Assembly: GCA_938041445.1 (NCBI GenBank)
Contig: CALISO010000060.1
Coordinates: 1-64,000, forward strand
Length of the DNA stretch: 64,000 bases
Direction of reading: 5' to 3'
Source: an uncultured Saprospiraceae bacterium
GTDB lineage: Bacteria; Bacteroidota; Bacteroidia; Chitinophagales; Saprospiraceae
A program made the translations under genes and the position numbers. A model generated the notes under the pieces. That model had not been told where the DNA came from and did no database searches. It was given only the letters and a program-made list of their open reading frames with translations. Below, piece after piece: positions 7,377-47,458 of the stretch. Each line of letters starts with the position of its first letter. Within the stretch, counting starts at the first letter, position 1.

Positions 7377-10300
7377 CTAGTTCAGCTTAAATCTTAGAAC
7401 AAATGCTGTCTCAAAGTTAGTCACTGGGAATGGTGGTGTAACCTTAGGAGTTGTTCTACCATACTCAGCGTACCATCTTATTGAGAAGTTCTTACTGATA
7501 TCGTATTCTATACTTGGATTGATTCTGAACTGTCTTGTACCTCTTACTGCTTGAGGAATCAATTCATCATTTCTCAGATCGTGTGCAAATGTCACATTAT
7601 CAGATATCGTGAATGACAAATCAAATATGAGACTTCTTGGTGTTTCCTCTCCTGTGTCTATGATACTACTCAACCCACCAGATCTTTTAGATCTTCTATT
7701 ATCTCTTAGTGGCACATCCTCTTCATCCGTTTCATTCGTCGTAGGACGTTGTCTCTTCTTACTATTTTTCTTTTTCCCTGTGAGGAAAGAAATGTTGACA
7801 TCTTCAAATTCAAATCCTGCTCCAAATACAAAGTCCGTATTCAACTGCTCTTTCAGCTCTCCTACTGTCGTAAATAACTCAAGTATCCTAGCCTTCTTGT
7901 ATTCGGCTTGTAGTCTGATATTGTTCTGAGTTTGTAGTTCTAGTCCAATGAGTGGGCTGAAGCTTTCATTAATCTGAACTGACGGCAATTCCCATCTTGT
8001 ATAGTAGTTCTGTGATGCTTGCTTTACTTCATCCGGATCATCAAGAGTATCAAATGTTGGATCACTATTGAATCTAAGGATTCCAAAGGTGTTCTTATAG
8101 GCATGCTTCAAGTTGATTGACTTAAAGTACTTGTTGAACATTGGAAGCTTGGCTAACCCGCCATAGTTGACTTTCCAGTTAGGGCTTGGAAGGAAATCCC
8201 ACGCTGATGTCTGCTCGATGATATCAAGATTGACATCCTCTGCCGATTGCCCGGTATAAGCTGCGATGAAAGATGGGACGACAACGTCATTATTCAACTT
8301 ACCATTACCAAAGGAATATTCTTCACCATCTATTGTATGTGTATCTGTTGATCTAGCTAACCTTTGACTGACAACACTTCTGTTGTCTCTCAATGTGTTG
8401 AACAATGTAATCGCTCTTTCGTCTTGAGTACCATCACCAAACAAAGTATTCAATGTGAAGAATGAGAACTCTACTGACCCTACATCATATAGTGCCTGTT
8501 GGACAAATCCTGCTTCGCCATTCTTGTTCAAAAACGTAAATTCCTCTGAGTGATTGAGGCTTGTCTTCTTGAAAAACTCTACATCAATATCAAAATCTTT
8601 CCATGGTTCAAGAGCAATGTCTAATTCTACGGTCTGTCTCTTATCTTGATAGATTTGCTTATTAAGCACTTCACTTCTGTTCCAATTGGTAATGTTTTGA
8701 TATAGCCAATTATCATTCGCATCTGTCTTGGTGATATCTGGCTGGATTCCTGACACGAATGCCCATCCTGGTGCATTGAACCCTTCTGACAGCCCAAAGA
8801 ACTGCGGATTGACAGCACTAGGATCACCAGCATTACCTCCAAACCCAGGAACCAATGTTGACAAGTCTTCTCGGTAAGTCGCCTTGATTGTTCGTAGTGA
8901 GAATAATGGTCTCAGTAAGATCTTCTCTGCTATGCCAGGAGTCCTCGGACCATCTGAGTCTTTGGTACGTTCAGCTTTAGGCTTTTTGCCATCTGGGCCA
9001 ACAACGTCTGCCGGTGCTGTATCCTTAGATAGCTGGTCTCTTGAACTGCTACTCCTTGATTTCTTCTCCGTTGATGAAGATCCGGTCTTATCAAGTTCCT
9101 TAATGTACTTGCTCTTACTATACAGTTTCTTGAAGTCAAATGTCCCGTTGACTGACCTATTCTGACTGTTCTTGATTACACCTCCTGGTTGATTTCCGTT
9201 TCCATCTATCTGTATTAACTGACCTGCTGTCCAATTATAGTCTGCCTTATACTGTGCCTTGATTGTGATCCAATCCAATAGAGGAAGGTATCTGATAGGC
9301 AACGTATATGAGGCTTGTATTGCATGGTCGTATGTTCGATTTCTACCTCCGGCTCTGAGGTTATCTCTCCAGTAGTCTTGAACAAAGTCTGCGTTATCAT
9401 CAACATCAATAGTTCTGTCGATGCCATTCTCATCTTCCCACTGTCGATCGTCTGCTAAGTCTGCAATACCTACCTGTCTCAACTCATCAACGAAGGATTG
9501 GTTAGTAGCATTGAATCGAATGTTTAGTGCTTTTGTCAGATCCCACTTCAAGTCATACTGTCGAGTCCAAGAAAAATTCTTCTCATCAAATTGGAAAACA
9601 GGAATGTCTGGTTGTCTGAATTTACGCTGCTTATGAGTCCTATCTAGTGTTGTGTTAAATGCAAAACTATTCGGGAATGGATTGAAATTGAATTGCTTAA
9701 TCACCGCCAAGTGCTTTGACTTAATCTTGCTAAATGGTGTGATGTACTTAATTTTTCTTTGATAAACATAGTCAAGACCTGCTCTATGTTCTATCGTATT
9801 ATCAAACTCAAGGAGAGGGTCTCGCCTATCTGTTTCGGTATAACCATAACTTGCACTGAAGTTGGAGATGTCCCATGGCTTAGGTACTCTAGGTCTACTC
9901 TTGCGTTCTTCTTTTTTCTTGGCTTTTTCTAACACCTTTAGTTCTTCAGGGGTTAGGTCTTTATTGTTGGGGTCAATCGTAGGACCAGCTGTCTTTGTTG
10001 ATTGAGCGGTTTTGGTTGGTTGCTTAGGTTTAGTACTTCTCTCTTTCTTGACATTCGTGAAATTGATCGTCTTAATCGTTGTCACATCTTGGGCGGCACT
10101 TCTGATTTCATCTCGTTCTGCCTGTGTATCTCCTTCATTAACCTTGTCTCTAAGCTTGACATCTGAGTCAAATGGATGATATTCAGGGTTGCTGATTGAC
10201 TTTAGATATTGAGCATAGAATGGTATCCTTACATTCCATTGTGATGGCAAAAATTTACCTAGCTCGAGACTTGTTGCGATGTCATAGTCAATAAGTTCTT

Positions 10301-13300
10301 CTCTATTTCTCTCTTGTAGTCTTTGATCTAGTGCTCCCCACCCGATACTACTATACTTACCTGATACACTCAAGTTACCGAGATCTGCAAGTTGTACATC
10401 GAGTCGAGCAAGTGCTGCAACACTTGGACTCTCTTCGAAACCAACAGCTCTGAGCTCGTTGACCCAGACCTCACCGGAAACAACTTCCGTTCCTAAATCT
10501 CTGGTATTTCTGACACCAATCTGGATACCCTTCACTAGACCTAAAGTAGGATTACCTACGACTGCGATGCTATGATCCAGCCCTTCGTCTTCTCTATATG
10601 GTTGTCTATATTCTTCTAATATATCTAGACCTAGTGCATTCCGCTCTAGTTTGAGATCAACAAGATCCTGAACTCCGACATCCAAAAAGTTCTCTTCCCT
10701 CCATAGATTATCTACATATCCGGGGTCACCTCTCAATGTATCAATAGAAGACATATTAAGTGGAATGGTATACTCGTAATAGTTAAACTCATAATCCTTG
10801 GCAAACCTCACAAACAATTCTAACTCGTCATCTTCCACTACGCCAAGTAGGTTGCCCATATCATCAATCGCTTCTTCCGCATGCACAAACAATTGTAATC
10901 GCTTAAAGAGTCGAAGGTCCATATCCAGAAGTTTGTTCATAGATACTTCACAGCCTCCTTCAAGATCACCAAAGTTCATTGCCAGTGATCGCTCATTTAA
11001 TTGGTTTGCAGATATAGAATTGAAGATAAGCTCTTGTTGAACTCCCTGTGGTATCTCATAACCAAATGGTATCTTACTACCGTTCTCTTCCACTCCCCTT
11101 GTATCTAAGTTGAACTCTACATCTGCTAAAGATCCATCTCCCCCTGGTCTTTGACATGGATTAGTGTCTCTTCTCCACTGACTTCTGACTAATTCGAATT
11201 CTGCCATTCTAAAGATCTTTCTCGAGGCAAATCCCTTCGTGATTAATCTCATAAACTGGATAGATCGAAATCCATCAATATCTCCCTCGGTCTCGTATAT
11301 AGATGCATCTTGAATAGGTACTTGAAACCTATACCACTTTTCTTCTGGTCTGTTCTCAGGAATAACAACATCGGTAATGAACCTCGCAGCTTCAACATCT
11401 ATCTCATTGAACCCATCATTTACAATTGGCACTTCATACTTAAAGAAATTCTCACTTTGATCTAGAGAATTGTTACCATTCAGATCTTCGCTATCAGGTG
11501 CAAATTTTCCTCTGACATTATTATTGGCAAGTGATTGGTTTACTTGAGTATCTGATCCTTGGATGTCCGGGCTATTATCCTCACTATTACTAAATAATCT
11601 ATACTTGGTCACCAAGTTGTCTGCATCTTCAAATACAGTTGCATCTCCAAAAAAGGCAAAGTCATCATTAGACGGATCATTTTCTACAACTTGTGGTACA
11701 TTGCCACCTAATCCTATAGCGACTTCCTGCAACCAAGCATCGTGTTTCACTCTTTCGTCTGTACTACTCAATCCATCCAATCCTAGATCTTGCTGTTCCT
11801 TTGTCGACACATCAAATGCACCTGTTACTGGTGGTGTCAAGGGAACTAAACCAAATGGCGTCTCCTTTATCGCTACAGCATTTTGTTGTCCATCTACTGG
11901 TACAGCATTTTCATAAAACTGTACACCATCTTTGAGGATATCTTCAGACACACTTCCTAGGTGAAAGACAAGTTTTCCGTTTACTTCCATTCCTTCTGGT
12001 GAAACTACGTTACCATCATAGTCAACTTGATCCATAAATGGATTAAGCATCCAAAACTCAATAAACTCATAGTTAGCAGCTTGGAAATCGTTGGTGTTGA
12101 GATACCGCATCACTCCTCCCCACCTTGTCTCTGGTTCTTCCAACAATAATCCTAACTCTAAGTCTGTTTCAGTTGATATTCCTGCAGAAAAATCTGTACC
12201 ACCATTTGGCACATCAAAGTTATATGGACCTCTGACTGTTGGATCATACAGCAAGTCAAATGTGAATAAATCCTGTCGGACATTTATTGGAAGGTCTCTA
12301 TTAAATATATCATTTTGGAGAACCCCTCTTGAGTAAGAATTGTCGGCATCTGCTCCTGTTCTAGCATTAATATCTGCAAGGTACCAGTTGAGCATTGCTC
12401 TATTGACCCCTGAGAATGTACTATCGGCTGTTGCCTCCGGCCATTCTTCATCTTCTGGTACACTAGATAGTTGCCATGAGAAAGGTGAACTTCCCAATGG
12501 TAGTCCCGTCACAGCACCCTCAAAATCATCAATATTCACCGCCCCTTCATTGTCTCCATCTGCTTCTACATTGATCACTCTCCTGTGACCTGGCTTGAGT
12601 GCAGCTACTTCTGCATTGAAACTCACAGCTGACTCAGCATTAGTACTATATAGTGGTAACTTGTCTAAGACCTTTGTTACCCAAGGTGAGTTCTTCTGAT
12701 ATGCCATGTCAAACCCTAAGACTCTATTGTTAATTGGGTCATCACCAAGATTTACCTTCTGCGTAAATGGTCTCTCTGACAACTTCATATACGTGCCACC
12801 GATACTGAAGTTCTCGCTGAATGCATAGTCTGCTCTCAGACCAAGCATATTTTTTTGTTGTAAACTAAAAAAGGCATCATCCTCTAGTTGTATATCTAAT
12901 GGTACACCTTGTTGCAGATAGGCTTCATTGAGTATTCTTAACCTACCGATACCATAGTCCACTTCATAATCAACACCTTCTATAAGAACTTTTCCTCCTG
13001 CTCTGACCGTCACTGACCCTCTGGGTATATCCCATGATCCAAGTGATATCTCTGCAGAGGTATCTGACTTGTATTCTCCTACCATAACAAACTTACTAGC
13101 GGCAAGATCAAGCTCAGCGATTGTTACAGTGTTTCTATACAGGCTATCATAGGCAAAGAATTCTTGAGCTCCTGGAAAATCGTCTCCGATAAACTCATTT
13201 AAGGTATTACCAAATGGCTCAAGTGTAGGGAAGATAATTGCTCCAACTCTTGGAATAACTGTGATTCCTGGCACATAATCAAAGACACCATCTGGTTGTG

Positions 13301-15110
13301 GATCATTGACAGAGTTGAGATTATCAAGATTGAAGACATTGAGAAGTGGGTCCCGACTTTTGTCAAATACTACACCGTTATTATCAGTAAATACGGGCAA
13401 ATATTTTTTCAACGTACCTCCGTCTCTATCATCCTCATAAAAGATGTCAAATCTAAAATCCTTTTGTGACAAGTTATTAGTCCTCAAGGCATAGACATTC
13501 TTCATCATCAAGTCCCACGTTGGATGCGAGATTGATTGATTACTGCTTTTGAGCATTTTTGCAAACAATACTGTCTCGGGTTGTGCTACACCAGTAGAAT
13601 CTGTACTTGAAATCTGCGCATCTGTAGCAAGCTCTCCTACTCTATAGACTTCGTCACAGTTCTGAGTATAAAAATACTCGTATGAAACTGCAAGTTGCTG
13701 ATTAGGTTGTAACCTTATGTTCAGTGATATAAAACCTAATTCTTGATTGAATGTATACTCATTTGGACGCAAGATTCTTCCTTTGAATTGCTCAAAGTCT
13801 CTTGTGCCTTCCATGCCATATTCCATCCTCAAACTCTGGTTGATATTGTCAAACTCCCTGCTATCCTGGTCGCCTTCTAAGACTTTAAATAGGTTGTTCG
13901 CTTTATTAGATGGTAGGTTATCGCCATTTCTATCTTTGCCAAATTGCACATCTTGTTTTACTGTATTCGGGTTAGCGAAGTTTTCTGCATCCGCTGTACC
14001 TAAATCTACAAGTCCAACTATCTGAGTACTATTCTCATCATAATCTGGCCTATCATCAGAGATCCAAACCTCAAGGTTCGTAATCTTAAATGCGCTTAAT
14101 ACGTGAGGTAGATTAGTAAGAGCACCTTCGTAGGCATTTCTATGATAGTGAGATACGAAGAAGTGTCTATTCTCATCATAGTCCGTTGGCCTCAATTCAA
14201 ACTCTTGTATCTGAGCACCATTTTGGACGGTAAGGTTCTTTGGCTTACTACGTTGTTGTGATGCAACTGCTGTCAACTTCAAGTGACCAAATTGCAAGTC
14301 GGTCTTAATACCAAAAAGCGATTGTGCTCCGGTAATTAATGAACTTCTCAATGGCATACTGATATTACCTGCCTCTATCTTCTTGATGATATCATCCTCA
14401 GTGAATTGTTCTGAGTCATAAGTCAGTTTGATTTTTTGATCTGAGTCAAATGTCGCCTGAGTATCATAATTGAAACCCAAGTCCATCTTGTCTCCAATGT
14501 TACCATCTACATTGATTTTGATCTTAGGCTCGAATAACATAGACCATCTATCGATGGCTCTAGTAGGATTGATACCATTATTGACAAACTGATATCGAGT
14601 ACCTATTGAGATGTCAATATTTCCCTGTGGCTTAATAGTTATACCACTTCCACCGAACAATCGATCTTTGAGTTTGTCTTGTATATTGACTTTAGACATA
14701 GGATCAAGTAAGCCACTTTTGCCCCGATCATTATCCCCTATCCCTGAAAGCTTGCTGAAGTATTCTTTGTCTGATTGTTCACTTTTCCAATCTAGGTACT
14801 CATCAAATGTCATATAAGATGGCATTGTCAAGTACTCATCACCTAGTTTTTCATAGATAATATAGGTGTCAGAATCGGGATCGTATTCTATCGTTTGTTG
14901 TATATCGGTAGGTTGTATATCGAATGGGTTGGAGTATTCTTCCGTTGTGAAATCTCCATCTCTATCACTGAGTGGAATGGTATCACTAGATGATGCCTGC
15001 CAGTAGTCCGCCTCGTCCCGAAGCAGATCCTTCCAATCTGTAGCTTTGACCTCCCCTAAGTATAGACACGACAACACCACCACACAGATAAAACCAATCT
15101 TGAACTTCAT
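7377..15110 (-). CDS. sprA: SprA, giant outer-membrane translocon of the type IX secretion system
   Basis: A 2577-residue protein with a signal peptide (hydrophobic stretch to about residue 23). It matches SprA (TIGR04189-type gliding motility protein): N-terminal region with IEYDPDSDTYIIYEKLGDEY, repeated aromatic beta-strand regions, and a terminal strand ending in FVLRFKLN. In Flavobacterium SprA forms a 36-strand barrel through which T9SS cargo crosses the outer membrane. Length is in the family range (about 2,300-2,600). A low-complexity Lys/Pro/Thr-rich segment (about residues 1690-1740) and a Ser/Lys-rich segment (about 2000-2060) are probably linkers. It lies 96 bp downstream of ruvA, an arrangement I recall as typical for Bacteroidota. 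The window holds at least three likely clients with T9SS sorting domains. Confidence 0.97.
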   Translation of the reverse strand: MKFKIGFICVVVLSCLYLGEVKATDWKDLLRDEADYWQASSSDTIPLSDRDGDFTTEEYSNPFDIQPTDIQQTIEYDPDSDTYIIYEKLGDEYLTMPSYMTFDEYLDWKSEQSDKEYFSKLSGIGDNDRGKSGLLDPMSKVNIQDKLKDRLFGGSGITIKPQGNIDISIGTRYQFVNNGINPTRAIDRWSMLFEPKIKINVDGNIGDKMDLGFNYDTQATFDSDQKIKLTYDSEQFTEDDIIKKIEAGNISMPLRSSLITGAQSLFGIKTDLQFGHLKLTAVASQQRSKPKNLTVQNGAQIQEFELRPTDYDENRHFFVSHYHRNAYEGALTNLPHVLSAFKITNLEVWISDDRPDYDENSTQIVGLVDLGTADAENFANPNTVKQDVQFGKDRNGDNLPSNKANNLFKVLEGDQDSREFDNINQSLRMEYGMEGTRDFEQFKGRILRPNEYTFNQELGFISLNIRLQPNQQLAVSYEYFYTQNCDEVYRVGELATDAQISSTDSTGVAQPETVLFAKMLKSSNQSISHPTWDLMMKNVYALRTNNLSQKDFRFDIFYEDDRDGGTLKKYLPVFTDNNGVVFDKSRDPLLNVFNLDNLNSVNDPQPDGVFDYVPGITVIPRVGAIIFPTLEPFGNTLNEFIGDDFPGAQEFFAYDSLYRNTVTIAELDLAASKFVMVGEYKSDTSAEISLGSWDIPRGSVTVRAGGKVLIEGVDYEVDYGIGRLRILNEAYLQQGVPLDIQLEDDAFFSLQQKNMLGLRADYAFSENFSIGGTYMKLSERPFTQKVNLGDDPINNRVLGFDMAYQKNSPWVTKVLDKLPLYSTNAESAVSFNAEVAALKPGHRRVINVEADGDNEGAVNIDDFEGAVTGLPLGSSPFSWQLSSVPEDEEWPEATADSTFSGVNRAMLNWYLADINARTGADADNSYSRGVLQNDIFNRDLPINVRQDLFTFDLLYDPTVRGPYNFDVPNGGTDFSAGISTETDLELGLLLEEPETRWGGVMRYLNTNDFQAANYEFIEFWMLNPFMDQVDYDGNVVSPEGMEVNGKLVFHLGSVSEDILKDGVQFYENAVPVDGQQNAVAIKETPFGLVPLTPPVTGAFDVSTKEQQDLGLDGLSSTDERVKHDAWLQEVAIGLGGNVPQVVENDPSNDDFAFFGDATVFEDADNLVTKYRLFSNSEDNSPDIQGSDTQVNQSLANNNVRGKFAPDSEDLNGNNSLDQSENFFKYEVPIVNDGFNEIDVEAARFITDVVIPENRPEEKWYRFQVPIQDASIYETEGDIDGFRSIQFMRLITKGFASRKIFRMAEFELVRSQWRRDTNPCQRPGGDGSLADVEFNLDTRGVEENGSKIPFGYEIPQGVQQELIFNSISANQLNERSLAMNFGDLEGGCEVSMNKLLDMDLRLFKRLQLFVHAEEAIDDMGNLLGVVEDDELELFVRFAKDYEFNYYEYTIPLNMSSIDTLRGDPGYVDNLWREENFLDVGVQDLVDLKLERNALGLDILEEYRQPYREDEGLDHSIAVVGNPTLGLVKGIQIGVRNTRDLGTEVVSGEVWVNELRAVGFEESPSVAALARLDVQLADLGNLSVSGKYSSIGWGALDQRLQERNREELIDYDIATSLELGKFLPSQWNVRIPFYAQYLKSISNPEYHPFDSDVKLRDKVNEGDTQAERDEIRSAAQDVTTIKTINFTNVKKERSTKPKQPTKTAQSTKTAGPTIDPNNKDLTPEELKVLEKAKKKEERKSRPRVPKPWDISNFSASYGYTETDRRDPLLEFDNTIEHRAGLDYVYQRKIKYITPFSKIKSKHLAVIKQFNFNPFPNSFAFNTTLDRTHKQRKFRQPDIPVFQFDEKNFSWTRQYDLKWDLTKALNIRFNATNQSFVDELRQVGIADLADDRQWEDENGIDRTIDVDDNADFVQDYWRDNLRAGGRNRTYDHAIQASYTLPIRYLPLLDWITIKAQYKADYNWTAGQLIQIDGNGNQPGGVIKNSQNRSVNGTFDFKKLYSKSKYIKELDKTGSSSTEKKSRSSSSRDQLSKDTAPADVVGPDGKKPKAERTKDSDGPRTPGIAEKILLRPLFSLRTIKATYREDLSTLVPGFGGNAGDPSAVNPQFFGLSEGFNAPGWAFVSGIQPDITKTDANDNWLYQNITNWNRSEVLNKQIYQDKRQTVELDIALEPWKDFDIDVEFFKKTSLNHSEEFTFLNKNGEAGFVQQALYDVGSVEFSFFTLNTLFGDGTQDERAITLFNTLRDNRSVVSQRLARSTDTHTIDGEEYSFGNGKLNNDVVVPSFIAAYTGQSAEDVNLDIIEQTSAWDFLPSPNWKVNYGGLAKLPMFNKYFKSINLKHAYKNTFGILRFNSDPTFDTLDDPDEVKQASQNYYTRWELPSVQINESFSPLIGLELQTQNNIRLQAEYKKARILELFTTVGELKEQLNTDFVFGAGFEFEDVNISFLTGKKKNSKKRQRPTTNETDEEDVPLRDNRRSKRSGGLSSIIDTGEETPRSLIFDLSFTISDNVTFAHDLRNDELIPQAVRGTRQFRINPSIEYDISKNFSIRWYAEYGRTTPKVTPPFPVTNFETAFVLRFKLN

Positions 15111-17191: not shown

Positions 17192-19588
17192 ATGTACCTA
17201 CTACTTAGTGATATTATCTCTATCGTCTCAGGTGAGACAACCCAGTCTGTTGAAGGACTCGGGATAAATGATATTACTTATGATAGTCGGTCAATAATCA
17301 AGACTAAGAAGTCACTATTCGTTGCTCTGACAACTGGCAAACGAGATGGTCACCAATACATCTCAGATGCAATAACTGCTGGCTGTCAATACTTCTTAGT
17401 AGATGTTGATGCAAGTCTTCCACCCCACAAAGGTGTGATCTATATCAAGGTTCAAGATACACTAGCAGCCTATCAAGCAATCGCTGCATGGAGAAGATCG
17501 CTTGTAGATATTCCGATCATTGGGATTGCTGGTAGTAATGGCAAAACAATTGTCAAAGAATGGCTTGCCTCTACCCTTGACCAACACTTTGCCATCATCA
17601 AGACACCAAAAAGTTATAATTCTCAAATTGGACTGCCACAGTCGTTATTACCTATAGGAAGACAGTACACCTTGGGTGTATTTGAGACCGGGATTTCTCA
17701 AGTTGGAGAAATGAAAATATTGGCAAACATTCTAAAGCCAACCATTGGAATCTTTACGAATATCGGTGATGCTCACAGCGAATCATTTGAATCTATCGAT
17801 CAAAAGCTTGAAGAGAAGCTCAAGTTATTCACTTCAGTAGAGACACTCATTTACTCTAGTGATAATCCGATGATCAGAGAAGCAATCACTAACTCTTTTG
17901 ACGAGAAAGCACAGATTCTATCATGGGGTTCGCTAGAAGAAGATGCACTGCGGATATTAGATGAATCCACCGATGTCAATGGACTTTCCATCAAGTTCAG
18001 CTATAATAGTAAGACCTATGACTTAACAGTACCGCTTCTAACAAGAATAGAAAGAGAAAATCTTCTTCATGTTCTGACTACAGCGATGTATCTAGATATA
18101 CCATTTGCAGACATTGAGCAATCATTTCAGTCATTGAATCAATTGCCTATGCGTCTGCAAGTGTATCAGGGCAGTCGTGGCAATGTCATTATCAATGACT
18201 CATATACTTCCGACCTACAAGCATTCAGATATGCTCTCGAATATCAAAAAGGACATTACCCAGATATGGAGACTTGTATCATCACGTCTGAAGGAGTAAA
18301 AAGCGATAACTTGACTGTGCTATTTGATGAATATCAAATTAAACATCGCATCTATCTTGACTCTTCTGTTCCTACAAATGAAGCAGTTAAACAAGTTGAA
18401 TCGTTAGGACTCACTGATACGGCATTGCTTGTCAAAGGACATCGAGTCGACAAACTAGATCTGGTCAGTGATGCACTAGCTAGTAAGTCTCGATCTACAA
18501 CCTTGCATGTCCACCTCCCTAGTCTTAAACAAAATCTAGCAGTCTATAGCAGAATGCTAAATTCGGAGACTAAGATCATCCTAGTTGTCAAAGCATCTGC
18601 TTATGGAAGTGGTAGTATCCACGTCAGTAGATATCTCTCCCAATTGCCTATTGACTATCTAGCGGTAGCCGTGTTAGATGAAGCTATAGAGTTGAGGGAA
18701 CAAGGGATTAGGTTGCCTATTTTGCTGTTCAACTTTTCAGATTATAATGCTGTGTTGTCGTTGTGGAAGCACGATATCGAACCAGAAGTTTACTCTATAG
18801 AACAACTCAAACTACTCTGTAGGACCAGTAAGCTTCAACCTTCTATACTAAATATCCACCTAAAGATTGAGACAGGCCTCAATAGACTTGGTCTTACTCG
18901 TGAAGATTTTACCACAGTACAACAATTGATCAACGAAAGTCCTAATATAAGAGTCAAGGGAATCTTTAGCCACTTATCTGGAAGCGATGATCCTGCATAC
19001 GATGAATTTACTGAGCAACAATATGAAACTTATGTCAAGCTTTATGTCGATCTCAGTAGCAGACTTGGCTACCAACCCATTAGACACCTAATCAATACAG
19101 CAGGAATTGTAAGGCATCCACAATATCAGCTAGATGCCGTAAGACTTGGTCTCGGCCTCTATGGAATTGATGAAACTACAGAAATCCAAAGTCAACTCAA
19201 TCCTGTACTCACTTTGACAAGTCAAGTCCTTCAAATCAAACAAGTGAAAGCTGGAGAGTCGGTAAGCTATGCCAGAAGCTTTATAGCAAATGCAGATAAG
19301 AAAATCGCGATACTTGGTATAGGGTATGCCGATGGACTACCTCGATCTGGATATCAACGTGGCAGTTCTGTTTACTATAAAGGTCAATGCCTTCCTTTCG
19401 TAGGAAATATCTGTATGGATGTCTGCATGATAGATGTAAGTGGTGTGGATATTAATCCAGGAGATACCGTTGAGATATTTGGTCACAACCTCTCTATACA
19501 AGAAGTCGCTAAGATTCATCATACGATTAGCTATGAGATAATCAGTCAAATATCACCTCGAGTAAAGAGAATCTATATTGAAGATTGA
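17192..19588 (+). CDS. murF-alr: Bifunctional MurF (UDP-MurNAc-tripeptide:D-Ala-D-Ala ligase)-alanine racemase
   Basis: A 798-residue natural fusion known from Bacteroidota. Residues 1-~430 are Mur ligase: IAGSNGKTIVKEW is the ATP-binding loop (Lys118), followed by the central and C-terminal Mur domains. Residues ~440-798 are a fold-type III PLP enzyme: VVKASAYG carries the PLP lysine (Lys467), IKIETGLNRLGL and GVDINPGDTVEIFG follow, and Tyr693 in SVSYARSF is the position of the catalytic tyrosine of the opposite subunit. The fusion couples making D-alanine with adding D-Ala-D-Ala to the peptidoglycan precursor. Compared with textbook MurF the loop reads GSNGKTIVKE rather than GSxGKTxTK. Confidence 0.95.
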   Translation: MYLLLSDIISIVSGETTQSVEGLGINDITYDSRSIIKTKKSLFVALTTGKRDGHQYISDAITAGCQYFLVDVDASLPPHKGVIYIKVQDTLAAYQAIAAWRRSLVDIPIIGIAGSNGKTIVKEWLASTLDQHFAIIKTPKSYNSQIGLPQSLLPIGRQYTLGVFETGISQVGEMKILANILKPTIGIFTNIGDAHSESFESIDQKLEEKLKLFTSVETLIYSSDNPMIREAITNSFDEKAQILSWGSLEEDALRILDESTDVNGLSIKFSYNSKTYDLTVPLLTRIERENLLHVLTTAMYLDIPFADIEQSFQSLNQLPMRLQVYQGSRGNVIINDSYTSDLQAFRYALEYQKGHYPDMETCIITSEGVKSDNLTVLFDEYQIKHRIYLDSSVPTNEAVKQVESLGLTDTALLVKGHRVDKLDLVSDALASKSRSTTLHVHLPSLKQNLAVYSRMLNSETKIILVVKASAYGSGSIHVSRYLSQLPIDYLAVAVLDEAIELREQGIRLPILLFNFSDYNAVLSLWKHDIEPEVYSIEQLKLLCRTSKLQPSILNIHLKIETGLNRLGLTREDFTTVQQLINESPNIRVKGIFSHLSGSDDPAYDEFTEQQYETYVKLYVDLSSRLGYQPIRHLINTAGIVRHPQYQLDAVRLGLGLYGIDETTEIQSQLNPVLTLTSQVLQIKQVKAGESVSYARSFIANADKKIAILGIGYADGLPRSGYQRGSSVYYKGQCLPFVGNICMDVCMIDVSGVDINPGDTVEIFGHNLSIQEVAKIHHTISYEIISQISPRVKRIYIED

Positions 19589-35196: not shown

Positions 35197-35541
35197 TTAC
35201 TTTTTCTGCTTTGTAGTTTTTGGTTTAAGACTAGAGACATAGTCTATACTCTTCTGAAAATACTGACTCATCTCCTCTATCTGGTCTATTATTTTCTCTG
35301 GTACTTCTACATACTCTTTCATTATTCGTCCGTGTTGTTCCATCACCTTTCCTTGGTGTTGCTCTATAAAATCTTCTAGATTTTTAGAAGATAATCTCAA
35401 CCCCATCTTCCCTTCCTTGCTCAAGAATGAAGACATATGTCCATTGATAGAAGTGTATGGCATTGTTTTTCCTTTGCGTTCTATTGATGGGTGGCGTTCT
35501 ATAATCTTCTCATAGTTGCCTAATGCTTCAGCGTATGTCAT
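35197..35541 (-). CDS. Small TfoX/Sxy-like protein, function unknown
   Basis: 114 residues. The segment MPYTSINGHMSSFLSKEGKMGLRLSSKNLEDFIEQ resembles the TfoX N-terminal domain (a small alpha/beta fold), followed by a helix KEYVEVPEKIIDQIEEMSQYFQKSIDYVSSLKPK with a lysine-rich end. No DNA-binding residues are clear. The similarity is from memory and moderate. It lies between tRNA-Val and the candidate origin; its start faces the DnaA boxes. Confidence 0.65.
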   Translation of the reverse strand: MTYAEALGNYEKIIERHPSIERKGKTMPYTSINGHMSSFLSKEGKMGLRLSSKNLEDFIEQHQGKVMEQHGRIMKEYVEVPEKIIDQIEEMSQYFQKSIDYVSSLKPKTTKQKK

Positions 35542-35982
35542 CCTTAATTATATTTTATTCTTGTCTGGCAAATAGACATTTTTGTATCACAATATATCCT
35601 GTGTATAAGTCGTGTAAAGAAAGAGATATTCACAATGGTATTATTATTATCAGATCGTAATACATATGTGAATTTTTCTATGTGTTTATCCTCACATTTG
35701 ATCAAGTGTTTTGCGCATCTCTTTGCACATCCTGTTATTCACAATCAGCATATTCCACTACTGTGAATAACCTTTTACTTTACCTAAATATACTACTACT
35801 CTGTTGTGAATAATCTCTTGATTACTTGTGATTCTAGATTTATCCACATTCTAACAGCAAGTAATAATAAGTAATGTATTTCTTTTTTAAAAAAGAGGTC
35901 AATAATATTAATACATAGCTGGTGGATAACTCAAAACTGTTGATTTGCAAAAACTTAATACTTTCACATCAGTTTTAAGATT
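35542..35982. other. Candidate replication origin (oriC) with DnaA boxes
   Basis: 441 bp without genes. Five exact TTATNCACA boxes: 35600-35608 (minus, TTATACACA), 35735-35743 (plus, TTATTCACA), 35762-35770 (minus), 35805-35813 (minus) and 35840-35848 (plus, TTATCCACA). Near matches are ATATTCACA at 35626-35634 and TTATCCACC (minus) at 35921-35929. Between the boxes and the next gene lie repeats of AGT/AAT (35860-35876) that could be DnaA-trios, and the AT-rich palindrome TCTTTTTTAAAAAAGA (35881-35896), a possible unwinding element. Three parS-like sites lie 7.5 kb to the right. No dnaA gene is in view. Confidence 0.72.
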
Positions 35983-37041
35983 ATGTATTCAAAAGCAGTT
36001 CGGTATTGGTTAATCGTAGGTTGTGTTCTTCTCTTCTTTCAAGTAGTGATTGGAGGTATTACGCGAATTACAGGTTCTGGTCTGAGTATTACTGAGTGGG
36101 ATATTGTGTTTGGCACCTTTCCTCCTATGAATCCAGAATCTTGGGGTATAGAGTTTGATAAGTATAAAGCTACTCCACAATATGATAAGCTTAATGATGG
36201 TATGTCAATGTCCGATTTTAAGTTTATCTATTTCTGGGAATACTTTCATCGCCTCTGGGCACGGATGATGGGTTTCATCTTTTTAATACCTGCTATTTTG
36301 TTTACTCTTAACAAGTCTTTAGATAGTAAGCTATGGCGGAAGTTATATCCTGTTATAGGATTTGCAGGGTTAGCTGCAGTTTTTGGGTGGATAATGGTCG
36401 CAAGTGGTTTGATTGATAGACCATGGGTCAATGCATATAAGTTATCAATTCATCTTTCTATTGCATTTGTAACATTTGCCTTTCTTGTAAGAGCGACTCT
36501 ATTTGCTTATAGCGGATCGTCAGAAAAGGCCTTTGAAAAAATTCCTTCTTTTTTTATTTTTCTAGGAGTTGTCTTTGCTATTCAAGTTGTGTTTGGGGGG
36601 ATAATGAGTGGAATGCGAGCAGGGTTAGTTTTTCCTACATGGCCTGATATGGGAGGAGCAATTGTTCCTGACGTATTGACGGAAGGTAGTAACTGGACAA
36701 TAGATAATCTTGAATATTATGAAAGAAGCAGCTTTGCACCGGCACTTATACAATTTATTCACCGCTTAACCGCTTACGGACTAGCAATTTTAGTATTTGT
36801 AGGTTGGAAAAAACAAAATAAGACAGTTGCAGGTGTATCTTATTGGTATAAAATTTTTACAATGTTAATTGGCCTACAAGTTCTAGTTGGCATTCTCACT
36901 GTAGTGAGTTGTAAGGGGAGTATACCACTAGGATTAGGTGTTTTGCATCAAGCGATCGCTTTATTGTTAGTAGGTGCTTTCGTTGGTGTTTTATTTGTGA
37001 TAAGACGTGGAGAAACTCAACGTACTTCAGAAGCAATTTGA
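35983..37041 (+). CDS. ctaA: Heme A synthase, COX15/CtaA family
   Basis: 352 residues with about eight transmembrane helices. Family marks: GGITRITGSGLSITEWD at the N-terminus, FWEYFHRLWARMMG with a heme-ligand histidine, RPWVNAYKLSIHLSIAF and QFIHRLTAYGLAILVF and LGVLHQAIAL with the others. It oxidises heme O to heme A for cytochrome c oxidase. The pattern is the COX15 (alpha-proteobacterial/mitochondrial) type rather than the short Bacillus type. First gene to the right of the candidate origin. Confidence 0.93.
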   Translation: MYSKAVRYWLIVGCVLLFFQVVIGGITRITGSGLSITEWDIVFGTFPPMNPESWGIEFDKYKATPQYDKLNDGMSMSDFKFIYFWEYFHRLWARMMGFIFLIPAILFTLNKSLDSKLWRKLYPVIGFAGLAAVFGWIMVASGLIDRPWVNAYKLSIHLSIAFVTFAFLVRATLFAYSGSSEKAFEKIPSFFIFLGVVFAIQVVFGGIMSGMRAGLVFPTWPDMGGAIVPDVLTEGSNWTIDNLEYYERSSFAPALIQFIHRLTAYGLAILVFVGWKKQNKTVAGVSYWYKIFTMLIGLQVLVGILTVVSCKGSIPLGLGVLHQAIALLLVGAFVGVLFVIRRGETQRTSEAI

Positions 37042-44104: not shown

Positions 44105-47100
44105 TTACTCCCCTTTCCCCTTCAGTGCATTGTAGTAACCTTCTATCATCTTCTGATATAGAGGATAGACATCTGGTGATACTTGCTTGAAGAGTTCTAC
44201 TTCTGACTCCTTCTCCTTGAGATATTCTTTTAGGTTGGGTGGTAGCTCTCTGATTATTTGATCTGCTGTTTCTCCCTTCCTTTTATTATCCTTTTCTCTT
44301 TTTCTATCGGCCTTATCTGCTTGTAGAAGCCTTGTTTCTATATCCTGCTGTCTTTTCAGCAAGTCATTATTTAGTCTCTTATTTACAAGATCTTCTTCTA
44401 TTTTGTTCATCAGATCGATGATTTCCTGTAGACCTTGTCCGCCTTCACCTTGTTCTTGAAGCTCTTTTCTAGCATCTTCTAGTGCTTTACGGAGAGCAGC
44501 TTGTTTAGCTGCGGCTTCGGCAAAGTCCTTAGCAGAGTTACCATCTTTGCCAGACTTACCTTGTTTGCTCATCATATCTTTTAAGCCTTCTCCTAAGGAT
44601 TGTTGCCCTTCGGATATCTTATCAGATGGTTTAGCTCCTGGTTTTCCTTGTCCTTGACCACCGGGTTTGTTACATTGCTGATTACCAGGCATAGACATAC
44701 CCATCTGCTGTTGCATCTGGTCCATCGACTCTGCGAGCATTAATGCAAGGTCATTAAGATTAGTCATTACTCTTCTTTGACTTACACTTGCCTCCTGTTT
44801 CTTTCTTGCTTCTAGGTCATCGATGGACTTTTCCATTCTTCGCTCAGTTTCCACAAGCTTTTCTGTTACAAAGCTTTCTATCTTATCTACTCTCTTACTG
44901 AGGGCATATAAACTATCACTTATTAATTCAAAATCCTCTTTCAGCTTGAACTGATCTTGTATTAACTCTACATATCTTGGCGTATTCGTCACACTTGTTT
45001 GAATATCACTTATGAGGGTTTCTTCATCATATGAAAGCGTCACCAAATTTTCTAACAGTTGCCTTAATGCCTTTAAGTCTTCTTCAAAAGCCTCCTCTTC
45101 ACCACTCTCCATTTGAGATTGCAAATTTCCTGCCATCTTCTTCATTTCTCCAGCAGCTTTTTTCTGACTTTTACTAGCTCCCGAGTTTTCTTTTTGCTCT
45201 AGTTTTTCTTGAGAGTCATCAAGCTGCTCTTGTACATCTTCAGAGTTTTCTTCTATTTCTTCCTTATCCAGTGGCTTAGGGAACTCTAGTTCTTCATTCT
45301 CTTCAGCAAGTTTTTCCATTTCTTCTTTGAGCTTTTCAAACTCTTCATTAATTTTCTCTTGCTCCTTCTTTAATTCTTCGTTTGTTTTCTTCTTTTGTTC
45401 TGTTTCTTCAGCAAGTTCTTCTTGTTTTTCAGCAAGTTCTTCGAGCTTTTCCATCATTTCGTTCATCTCCTTCTCAAATTCTAACTGCTTGAACATCTCT
45501 TCAAGTCGCTCCATTTCCATCTCTTGCATCTCTTCTTGCATCTCAAACTCTTCGAGTTGCTCCATCATTTCATCCTTATTGAGCTCTTGCATAAGTTCCT
45601 GGATCTGCTCCATTAATGTCTGCATCTCTTCATCTATTACCTCCTCGAACATTTCTTCAATCTTTTCCTGCTTCTGCTGAGTCTCTTCATCAGGCTTGTT
45701 GAACTCCTCTTGCTTTTCTAGGTTCTCTTGGAAGGCTTCTTGCGCTTCTTTGAGTTTCTCTTGTATTTCTTTTTGCTTCTCCAGTAGCTTTTCAAGTTCC
45801 TTTTGCTCTTGCCAGCTAAGCTCTTTTTTCTCTAAGAGCTTTTCTCTCATTTTACGGATTTCTTCCTTGAGTTTCTTAGACTCTTTGATCGCTTCTTCTA
45901 CTTTGTCTTTGACTTGCTCTTCATTGAGGTCTTCTTCTTCTTCTAACTCTTCAATTGTTGGTTTAGCGAATGTCATAACTTGAGTCTTAGACGACTTACT
46001 TCCATTGATACCATCATTATCCTGCACTTCGAAGAAGTATGTGATCTGATCACCAGCATCTAGATTATATTCCCTTAGGTCCATCACGTAGTCGTATGTC
46101 CACTCATTAGAGGGTGCCTTAGGGATTGGGATACGGTTATTAGTTTTATTGCGGCCTGCTTGATCAGTAACTGTATAATTGAATGTTAGGTTTGTCAATC
46201 CATAGTCATCTGACGCATTGCCAATAAAATACTTGACTTCTTCTGTATTTATGCTGTCGGCAAATGCTTCAACAGAGATACTCGGGTGATTGTCAGGAGC
46301 AACATTGATATTGTATACTGATGAATCTGGTGTTGTGAGATAAGCATTGTTTATATAGACCGTGTAGAGATCACTAGACATCATTGTCTTAGTGTGGCTA
46401 AATGTATTTTTGCGGCTCTGCTTAAATTCGGCTACTTTTTTAGCATTGTTAAACCATATTGAGACTTCGTCTGTATCTTCTGTCTGGTATGTCCACTTGA
46501 TTCTTGTTCCTTGTGGGACAAAAGCATCACCAATGTTGTTCAAAGTTTCATCTTTACGTCCTGTATAACCAGGATAATCTAATGTTAATGCGAATTGATC
46601 AATACTTGGTTTAGGTAATACTTTGATTGACTTTTCGGTAGAGTAGTATGGTCCAGAGTATACCTTAAACTTGGTATCTTTTTGAACATTTTTAAAAGTA
46701 TAGGTGTATAGATCACGGTCAAGCATTTTCAGTTCATACTGAAAGTCCTTTAGGTCAATAAATACTTGATCAGGTAGAGTGCTTCCCTCAACCCTAACTG
46801 TGATTGTCACATCTTCAGATCTAAGTACTTCGATATTATCGTTTTCTAGTTTGAAGTGAAAAGGTGCTGCTCTTTCAAACTCTCTGTCATTGTTGATAAG
46901 TCTGTGTGTACTGTCTTTCAAAAGTGATGGTGCTCCGAAAATCAGAGCAAGAAAAATCAAAAAGGGTGGGAGTGCATACTTTGCATACTTTTTGTTGTAA
47001 CTGAGATCAATTGCTGACTTGAATGGCACAAGTTTGAGCCCATCAGTTTTTTGATTGATACTTGCATCTATGAGTTCCGAATTAATTTGGCTAGAGCCGG

Positions 47101-47458
47101 ACTGACTTTTAAGTTGTAAGATGTTAAGCAACTTATCCTTGACATCTGCGAAGTGATCACCAATGATATTAGCCGCTTGTTCGTGGGTTATTGTTCTTCC
47201 TAGAGAAAAGTACTTCATCAAAGGATTGATTACCCAAAAGAATAAAGCTACTGCAGAACTAAGAATAAATCCAAAGAACATCACCTTACGGATACCCTTT
47301 TCAAAGTAGAAGTAATGCTCCAAAATATTGATAACCAGAAATGCCGCGATGATGAGTCCTACTGAGTAAAGTAAACCTCGAATAAGCTTATTCAGATAGA
47401 ATTTTCTAATAAACTGATCTAATCTCTGTATCAATAAATCGTAACTACTCTTACCCAC
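44105..47458 (-). CDS. DUF4175-family large membrane/coiled-coil protein
   Basis: 1117 residues. Three membrane segments (about 22-45, 55-78, 150-170) are followed by beta-rich domains (190-500), then a long Glu/Lys/Gln-rich coiled coil (about 500-830) with many heptads (EEMMEQLEEFEMQEEMQEM), a helical region and a Gly/Lys/Pro-rich linker (about 920-980). The C-terminal helices (LPPNLKEYLKEKESEVELFKQVSPDVYPLYQKMIEGYYNAL) are the most family-like. DUF4175 is a Bacteroidota family of unknown role, probably in the envelope. Operon with the GHKL ATPase and ybeY. The reverse strand of the coiled coil reads as long Ser-rich frames that are not genes. Confidence 0.88.
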   Translation of the reverse strand: MGKSSYDLLIQRLDQFIRKFYLNKLIRGLLYSVGLIIAAFLVINILEHYFYFEKGIRKVMFFGFILSSAVALFFWVINPLMKYFSLGRTITHEQAANIIGDHFADVKDKLLNILQLKSQSGSSQINSELIDASINQKTDGLKLVPFKSAIDLSYNKKYAKYALPPFLIFLALIFGAPSLLKDSTHRLINNDREFERAAPFHFKLENDNIEVLRSEDVTITVRVEGSTLPDQVFIDLKDFQYELKMLDRDLYTYTFKNVQKDTKFKVYSGPYYSTEKSIKVLPKPSIDQFALTLDYPGYTGRKDETLNNIGDAFVPQGTRIKWTYQTEDTDEVSIWFNNAKKVAEFKQSRKNTFSHTKTMMSSDLYTVYINNAYLTTPDSSVYNINVAPDNHPSISVEAFADSINTEEVKYFIGNASDDYGLTNLTFNYTVTDQAGRNKTNNRIPIPKAPSNEWTYDYVMDLREYNLDAGDQITYFFEVQDNDGINGSKSSKTQVMTFAKPTIEELEEEEDLNEEQVKDKVEEAIKESKKLKEEIRKMREKLLEKKELSWQEQKELEKLLEKQKEIQEKLKEAQEAFQENLEKQEEFNKPDEETQQKQEKIEEMFEEVIDEEMQTLMEQIQELMQELNKDEMMEQLEEFEMQEEMQEMEMERLEEMFKQLEFEKEMNEMMEKLEELAEKQEELAEETEQKKKTNEELKKEQEKINEEFEKLKEEMEKLAEENEELEFPKPLDKEEIEENSEDVQEQLDDSQEKLEQKENSGASKSQKKAAGEMKKMAGNLQSQMESGEEEAFEEDLKALRQLLENLVTLSYDEETLISDIQTSVTNTPRYVELIQDQFKLKEDFELISDSLYALSKRVDKIESFVTEKLVETERRMEKSIDDLEARKKQEASVSQRRVMTNLNDLALMLAESMDQMQQQMGMSMPGNQQCNKPGGQGQGKPGAKPSDKISEGQQSLGEGLKDMMSKQGKSGKDGNSAKDFAEAAAKQAALRKALEDARKELQEQGEGGQGLQEIIDLMNKIEEDLVNKRLNNDLLKRQQDIETRLLQADKADRKREKDNKRKGETADQIIRELPPNLKEYLKEKESEVELFKQVSPDVYPLYQKMIEGYYNALKGKGE

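Follow-up and report, generated by a model that had tools for sequence, protein, structure and literature searches.

Where does an uncultured Saprospiraceae bacterium, represented by a 3.35-Mb draft of 146 contigs, begin to replicate its chromosome? The question is raised by a 441-bp stretch within the 78,238-bp contig C60, whose bases 1-64000 (64,000 nucleotides) are the whole stretch of DNA that was analysed and are called the window here. A first-pass annotation had proposed this AT-rich interval as a candidate chromosomal origin on the strength of its DnaA boxes, and our analysis supports that reading through the box cluster, its conservation in the family and a switch of strand bias. The stretch carries the sole cluster of exact boxes in the assembly, its place and its core are kept in relatives, its duplex stability is low, and the strand bias switches at this site both here and in relatives. 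Judged from sequence, it is very probably the chromosomal origin (oriC) of this bacterium, with the predicted origin most likely lying at 35.60-35.93 kb. The features of the stretch and its flanks, with the two profile models of the core that are described below, are as follows.

35197..35541, minus strand: 114-codon ORF, TfoX_N-like, under the curated cut-off
35542..35982, no strand: gene-free AT-rich stretch, candidate oriC, 441 bp, 28% GC
35600..35608, minus strand: exact DnaA box TTATACACA
35626..35634, plus strand: one-mismatch DnaA box ATATTCACA
35686..35694, plus strand: one-mismatch DnaA box TTATCCTCA
35735..35743, plus strand: exact DnaA box TTATTCACA; conserved in aligned position in three close relatives, two with an exact box and one with a one-mismatch box
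35762..35770, minus strand: exact DnaA box TTATTCACA; in the three close relatives, exact in one and with one mismatch in two
35805..35813, minus strand: exact DnaA box TTATTCACA; retained in one of the three close relatives
35839..35890, plus strand: this genome's own diverged copy of the 50-bp core; 13.4 bits with model R1, 11.0 bits with the family HMM
35840..35848, plus strand: exact DnaA box TTATCCACA, box 1 of the core, its ACA end towards the AT-rich part
35850..35857, plus strand: weak box TCTAACAG, box 2 of the core (family consensus ATTAACAG)
35859..35918, no strand: least stable 60 bp of the stretch, likely unwinding site (predicted)
35861..35869, plus strand: trinucleotide steps GTA ATA ATA (other strand 3'-CAT TAT TAT-5'), DnaA-trio-like, 12 bp past box 1
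35881..35896, no strand: perfect 16-bp palindrome TCTTTTTTAAAAAAGA, of the form T6A6, about where a T/A tract closes the family core
35921..35929, minus strand: one-mismatch DnaA box, beyond the AT-rich part
35983..37041, plus strand: ctaA (heme A synthase, COX15-CtaA), which stays beside the origin across the family

The five exact TTATNCACA boxes (35600-, 35735+, 35762-, 35805-, 35840+) fall within 249 bp, and all are where the first-pass annotation had placed them, on both strands. The gene-free, AT-rich character of the interval between the 114-codon ORF and ctaA, the AGT/AAT repeat at 35860-35876 and the palindrome were likewise described correctly; the near matches it mentioned are real, but there are three of them (35626+, 35686+, 35921-) and not two. 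In 3000 dinucleotide shuffles of the 441 bp, exact boxes averaged 0.06 with a maximum of two, and five were never reached. The eight boxes of the whole window are weak evidence against an expectation of 3.8 +/- 1.9, eight being reached by 4 of 100 shuffles; it is their clustering, and not their number in the window, that carries the evidence. Across the assembly the exact box occurs 161 times against 159 for the reversed pattern, and since it is therefore not over-represented genome-wide, a single cluster stands out. By eye, in the full listing of these 161 boxes (98 + 63), this five-box cluster is the only one: the assembly has no second spot with more than two exact boxes per 500 bp, and one other spot, on contig C63, has two.

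A better cluster elsewhere, for example next to dnaA, had been named as the finding that would overturn the origin reading, and the assembly contains no better cluster of exact boxes. The dnaA gene lies on another contig (C39:40175-40378, a match to the C-terminal domain), hence not adjacent to the stretch, and the surrounding 3.2 kb contain no exact box. DnaA of this genome is an intact 465-residue ORF (L001) with a normal box-reading domain IV that aligns with solved DnaA structures, and should be able to read TTATNCACA. The duplex is also unusually weak at the site: its 60-bp stability minimum is among the lowest 0.05% of the window and its 200-bp minimum among the lowest 0.002%. The ACA end of box 1 faces this AT-rich part, which is the orientation of known origins. 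When the stretch is aligned to the DNA of three near relatives, its boxes at 35735, 35762 and 35840 hold their positions, exactly or with one mismatch, as does the block 3' of 35840.

The same box cluster, which the first-pass annotation had suggested looking for in related genomes, is found upstream of ctaA across the family. We located ctaA in 101 of 120 family genomes (E<=1e-20) and counted boxes in the upstream regions of 90 of them; 11 of the 101 matches were left out, two of which start at a contig end, and G013 and G026 offered less than 700 bp. Within 700 bp upstream of ctaA, the exact boxes of these 90 genomes number 130, the reversed-pattern controls 10, or 580 against 159 when one mismatch is allowed, and 79 of the 90 have at least four such boxes (9 of 90 for the controls). 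No exact box is present in 25 of the 90, and the five of this genome are more than most relatives have. The best 80 of 579 named loci, which favour near relatives, share organisms with the family set and include a few Flavobacteriaceae, gave a similar picture: the kilobase upstream of ctaA has 90 exact boxes and 6 controls, the other 1.26 Mb 86 and 47. Of the 60 named loci that extend more than 3 kb in each direction, 45 have the greater local GC skew on the side of ctaA. Among these loci, the nearest named relatives of our bacterium are metagenome bins of Saprospiraceae. Outside the family, none of 24 loci, drawn from 56 ctaA matches in 55 genomes, has an exact box within 1.5 kb upstream of ctaA. 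The gene across the predicted origin from ctaA varies among close relatives, being the TfoX_N-like ORF here and a different gene in L074 (9169-9615, minus strand), an ORF read by eye as D-aminoacyl-tRNA deacylase. Farther off in the window are a 2577-residue SprA_N protein (7377-15110, minus strand; Pfam: motility related/secretion protein) and a single ORF (17192-19588, plus strand) that fuses a Mur ligase middle domain to both alanine racemase domains, which we take to be a MurF-Alr type fusion.

Besides boxes, the upstream regions share a core of about 50 bp. In an 8-mer count of the family upstream regions, words of the DnaA box and the word TGATGATG were far above shuffles, the latter occurring in 26 genomes against 1.8 expected, and in 23 of the 26 its context is one element in one direction. 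The other three places were removed by hand from the seed, two for lying on the opposite strand in another context and one for lying too close to ctaA. A profile seeded on the 23 sites and then iterated with the genus of our bacterium excluded (67 sequences in the last HMM round) scores at least 8 bits in 80 of 90 upstream regions, each time with the orientation of ctaA, and none of 90 reversed decoys reaches that score. The consensus is TTATCCACA-A-ATTAACAG-CAC-TAATGATGATGAGG-TTTTTTTAAAAATT, that is, a strong and a weak box followed by a trinucleotide repeat and a T/A tract. A 53-position model built from 71 sequences (R1) was then run on whole genomes: at E<=1e-4 it matches 75 of 120 family genomes, once each, and where ctaA is also found the core lies less than 1 kb upstream of it and in the same direction in 71 of 72, G008 being the exception. 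Because these sequences entered the building of the HMM and of R1, the 80 of 90, like the majority of the 71 of 72, in part reflect fitting; what supports the core independently is the held-out genomes, a sister family and the reversed decoys. Among genomes held out of the model, five of six agree at E<=1e-4; the sixth is G008, whose contig has ctaA starting at base 49. With the threshold relaxed to E<=1e-3, 74 of 77 cores lie upstream of ctaA (6 of 9 in held-out genomes), the exceptions G008, G041 and G077 having their strongest match elsewhere. In 8 of the 120 family genomes R1 has no match at E<=0.1.

An origin should also mark a switch in strand bias, and the first-pass annotation had suggested a sign change of GC skew near 35.7 kb from five hand-counted lines. 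The counts were all correct and yet overstate the raw signal: among all 60-base lines, G exceeds C in 238 and falls short of it in 322 on the left of the stretch (n=595), against 230 and 203 on the right (n=472). The raw skew, cumulated over the window, reaches its lowest point at 46 kb, away from the stretch, pulled there by coding-strand effects that include a long minus-strand gene at 44105-47458. This gene encodes a 1117-residue DUF4175 protein with a long Glu/Lys-rich part and has a strongly negative raw skew. The raw curve was dropped as an origin test and replaced by a break model of G versus C at fourfold silent sites in which the coding strand is a term. With the coding strand so modelled, the sign switch on contig C60 falls at 34-36 kb; the gain is 17.0 log units, which 0 of 200 permutations reach, and the earlier suggestion of a turn near 35.7 kb holds in this form though not for the raw minimum.

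A skew curve of the full chromosome of this genome cannot be drawn because the assembly is in 146 contigs, and two relatives on single large contigs, G062 (7.51 Mb) and G057 (4.35 Mb), were sampled in 20 stretches of 20 kb each. Both turn at the site. The coarse skew passes from negative to positive between 2.32 and 2.36 Mb in G062 and between the stretches at 2.03 and 2.05 Mb in G057, with single weak exceptions farther away. At finer scale, the raw minimum of the 60 kb around ctaA in G062 is at 2349 kb (ctaA start 2348.7 kb, core 2348.9 kb), and that of the 40 kb around ctaA in G057 is at 2053 kb (ctaA start 2051.8 kb, core 2052.3 kb), so that the local minimum lies about 1 kb or less from the site in both. 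The silent-site model puts the best break at 2348.5-2349.5 kb in G062 (0 of 200 permutations) and at 2052.5-2053.5 kb in G057 (1 of 200). In a further relative, G042, all 8 stretches to the left of ctaA, spread over 1.2 Mb, have negative skew, and the one to its right has positive skew. The strand bias thus switches at the site in contig C60, with the coding strand modelled, and in G062 and G057.

The sister family f2, of the same order, allows the core to be separated from ctaA. The core is found at E<1e-3 in 8 of 10 f2 genomes, with at least six boxes (up to one mismatch) in the 850 bp around it in 7 of the 8, and only two in G232. In G384 the core, at 640.2 kb, sits in a cluster of ten boxes (up to one mismatch) per 500 bp, and ctaA is 150 kb off at 790.7 kb; in G152 a cluster of seven such boxes surrounds the core at 3710.9 kb, and ctaA is 34 kb off at 3676.4 kb. 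The core of f2 therefore goes with the box cluster and not with ctaA, and is no part of the ctaA promoter. Compared with the predicted f2 origins, the common elements are the 50-bp core and the box cluster, while f2 differs in that ctaA is not adjacent and in that the repeat is mostly TAATAGTAATAG on the strand of box 1. Coarse skew changes sign between 620 and 740 kb in G384 and between 3.52 and 3.80 Mb in G152. The fine-scale skew of both genomes is noisy: in G384 the raw local minimum is at 638 kb, about 2 kb from the core, with only 20 kb read on the left, and the best silent-site break is at 692.5 kb rather than at the core; in G152 the raw local minimum is at 3652 kb, and the best silent-site break, at 3680.5 kb, has the opposite sign and is not at the core. 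Although not adjacent, ctaA and the predicted origin share one region of the chromosome in both f2 genomes, and their neighbourhood looks as if it were ancestral.

In more distant families the picture is mixed, and we make no phylum-wide claim. R1 matches have 7 to 11 boxes (up to one mismatch) within 400 bp in G264, G228 and G193, four in G159, two in G292 and none in G245, G154 and G311. In G264, of another family of the phylum, locus L299 (contig C1, about 13.0 kb) has a core match accompanied by six exact DnaA boxes within 850 bp, which suggests that the module extends beyond the order.

DnaA boxes double as regulatory and titration sites, and the cluster lies directly upstream of ctaA with a core whose direction is fixed relative to that gene. 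The stretch could then be a datA-like or regulatory site that controls ctaA or soaks up DnaA, the origin being elsewhere. We consider this improbable. A datA-like site would have its box cluster away from the skew minimum, and the skew turns at the site in two relatives and, with the coding strand modelled, in contig C60. In f2 the core keeps its own box cluster far from ctaA in both G152 and G384, and in G384 it is close to the raw local skew minimum; three family genomes have a strong core (R1 at E<=1e-4) with no ctaA match at E<=1e-20; and the 24 ctaA loci from outside the family all go without an exact box in the 1.5 kb upstream.

The copy of the core in this genome is diverged, reading TTATCCACA-T-TCTAACAG-CAA-GTAATAATA-AG and onwards. 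It is the top R1 match within the window and not within the genome: run genome-wide on this assembly (G000), R1 does not single out the site, and reports a partial match at C2:37276 with E 0.04. On contig C60 itself, at about 72.9 kb (L282 8900-8922, minus strand), a partial match of box 2 and repeat only reaches 13.6 bits against 13.4 at the site, and is probably due to chance. In G089, of the same genus, the core scores 7.1 bits with the family HMM and the R1 match sits on another contig. The site is identified by its box cluster, position and strand bias, and the core serves as supporting evidence. A core this weak in the genus would be accounted for if the genus now started replication mainly elsewhere and the stretch were a real but secondary or former origin. 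This we regard as more improbable still than a regulatory or titrating site, given that the stretch has more exact boxes than most relatives, several of them kept in near relatives, that the silent-site switch falls on it, and that the assembly has no other cluster of exact boxes. Least probable of all is a chance, functionless clustering of boxes in AT-rich DNA, for which the lack of a genome-wide excess and the box number of the window could be cited. Shuffles of the stretch never exceed two boxes, boxes keep their places in close relatives and abound at the site family-wide, and this conservation across the family already refutes the chance reading.

If the stretch is the origin, as we predict, how might it open? 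According to PMC6669920 and PMC8287927, the basal origin unwinding system (BUS) consists of tandem DnaA boxes, a short spacer and DnaA-trios, and DnaA on the paired boxes forms an oligomer that grows along one strand over three-base steps, each with A in the middle, and opens the duplex. A permissive form of the rule, given in PMC8287927, asks for tandem boxes, a spacer of up to 16 bp and at least three 3'-NAN-5' steps. The sequence at 35840-35869 conforms to it, with three such steps and a 12-bp spacer, and by eye the three near relatives and the alignment of 71 sequences show the same register. The rule is loose, being satisfied beside 272 of 573 family boxes and still beside 259.4 of 573 after shuffling. 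Canonical 3'-GAT-5' trios are absent from this site. Strict trio runs of at least three number 24 beside the 573 family boxes, 20 on the upstream side and 21.6 after shuffling, which is no clear excess; for runs of at least four the numbers are 6, 1 and 3.5. With no strict-trio excess, the trio label, which the first-pass annotation had given to the repeat, rests on its register inside the aligned core: the likeness holds under the permissive published rule and fails for the canonical repeat.

The module thus resembles the BUS in having a strong and then a weaker box, a first step that begins 12 bp past box 1 here and 11 bp past it in the consensus, three or more 3'-NAN-5' steps, and AT-rich DNA beyond; it departs from the BUS in that the family repeat after the first step is mostly 3'-TAC-5' (here 3'-CAT TAT TAT-5') and not 3'-GAT-5'. 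With this in mind, one may outline initiation at the stretch, where we infer the binding of DnaA, the opening and its direction, and the loading of helicase. DnaA, supplied by the dnaA gene on another contig, would load onto both the scattered boxes (35600-35813) and the box pair (35840-35857); an oligomer starting at the pair would extend rightwards on one strand of the steps at 35861-35869; the AT-rich segment at 35859-35918 with its T6A6 palindrome would be opened, the helicase would be loaded there, and two forks would depart. One may further speculate, with rather more doubt than conviction, that a DnaA box, a weak box, a (TRA)n repeat off the GAT type and a T/A tract form an ancestral opening module of the whole order, which has stood beside ctaA and apart from dnaA since the Saprospiraceae arose, and in which DnaA reads a changed single-strand code with the 3'-CAT TAT TAT-5' of this genus as an extreme.

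DnaA-dependent bacterial origins are predicted by tools and collections such as Ori-Finder and DoriC, and the stretch is an ordinary element of this kind: a box cluster, an AT-rich part of low stability, gene-free DNA, a skew switch and one cluster per genome. It is unlike the general case in lying beside ctaA rather than dnaA, and in having been detected by a family-wide comparison of draft genomes. Among the matches listed there is no published account of this origin, and DoriC may already list the predicted origins of complete relatives. What is new is the ctaA address kept across the Saprospiraceae together with a shared, off-type opening core.

For the family, this provides an example of an origin that holds its place beside a gene other than dnaA. 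As the place beside ctaA is kept family-wide, and the 50-base core in most relatives, origins can be found even in fragmentary genomes, and ctaA together with the 53-position model is a practical landmark for the origins of draft and metagenomic Saprospiraceae and their relatives, whose position is needed by growth-rate estimates from read depth. The conserved and slightly off-type opening module is, moreover, open to direct test with purified DnaA.
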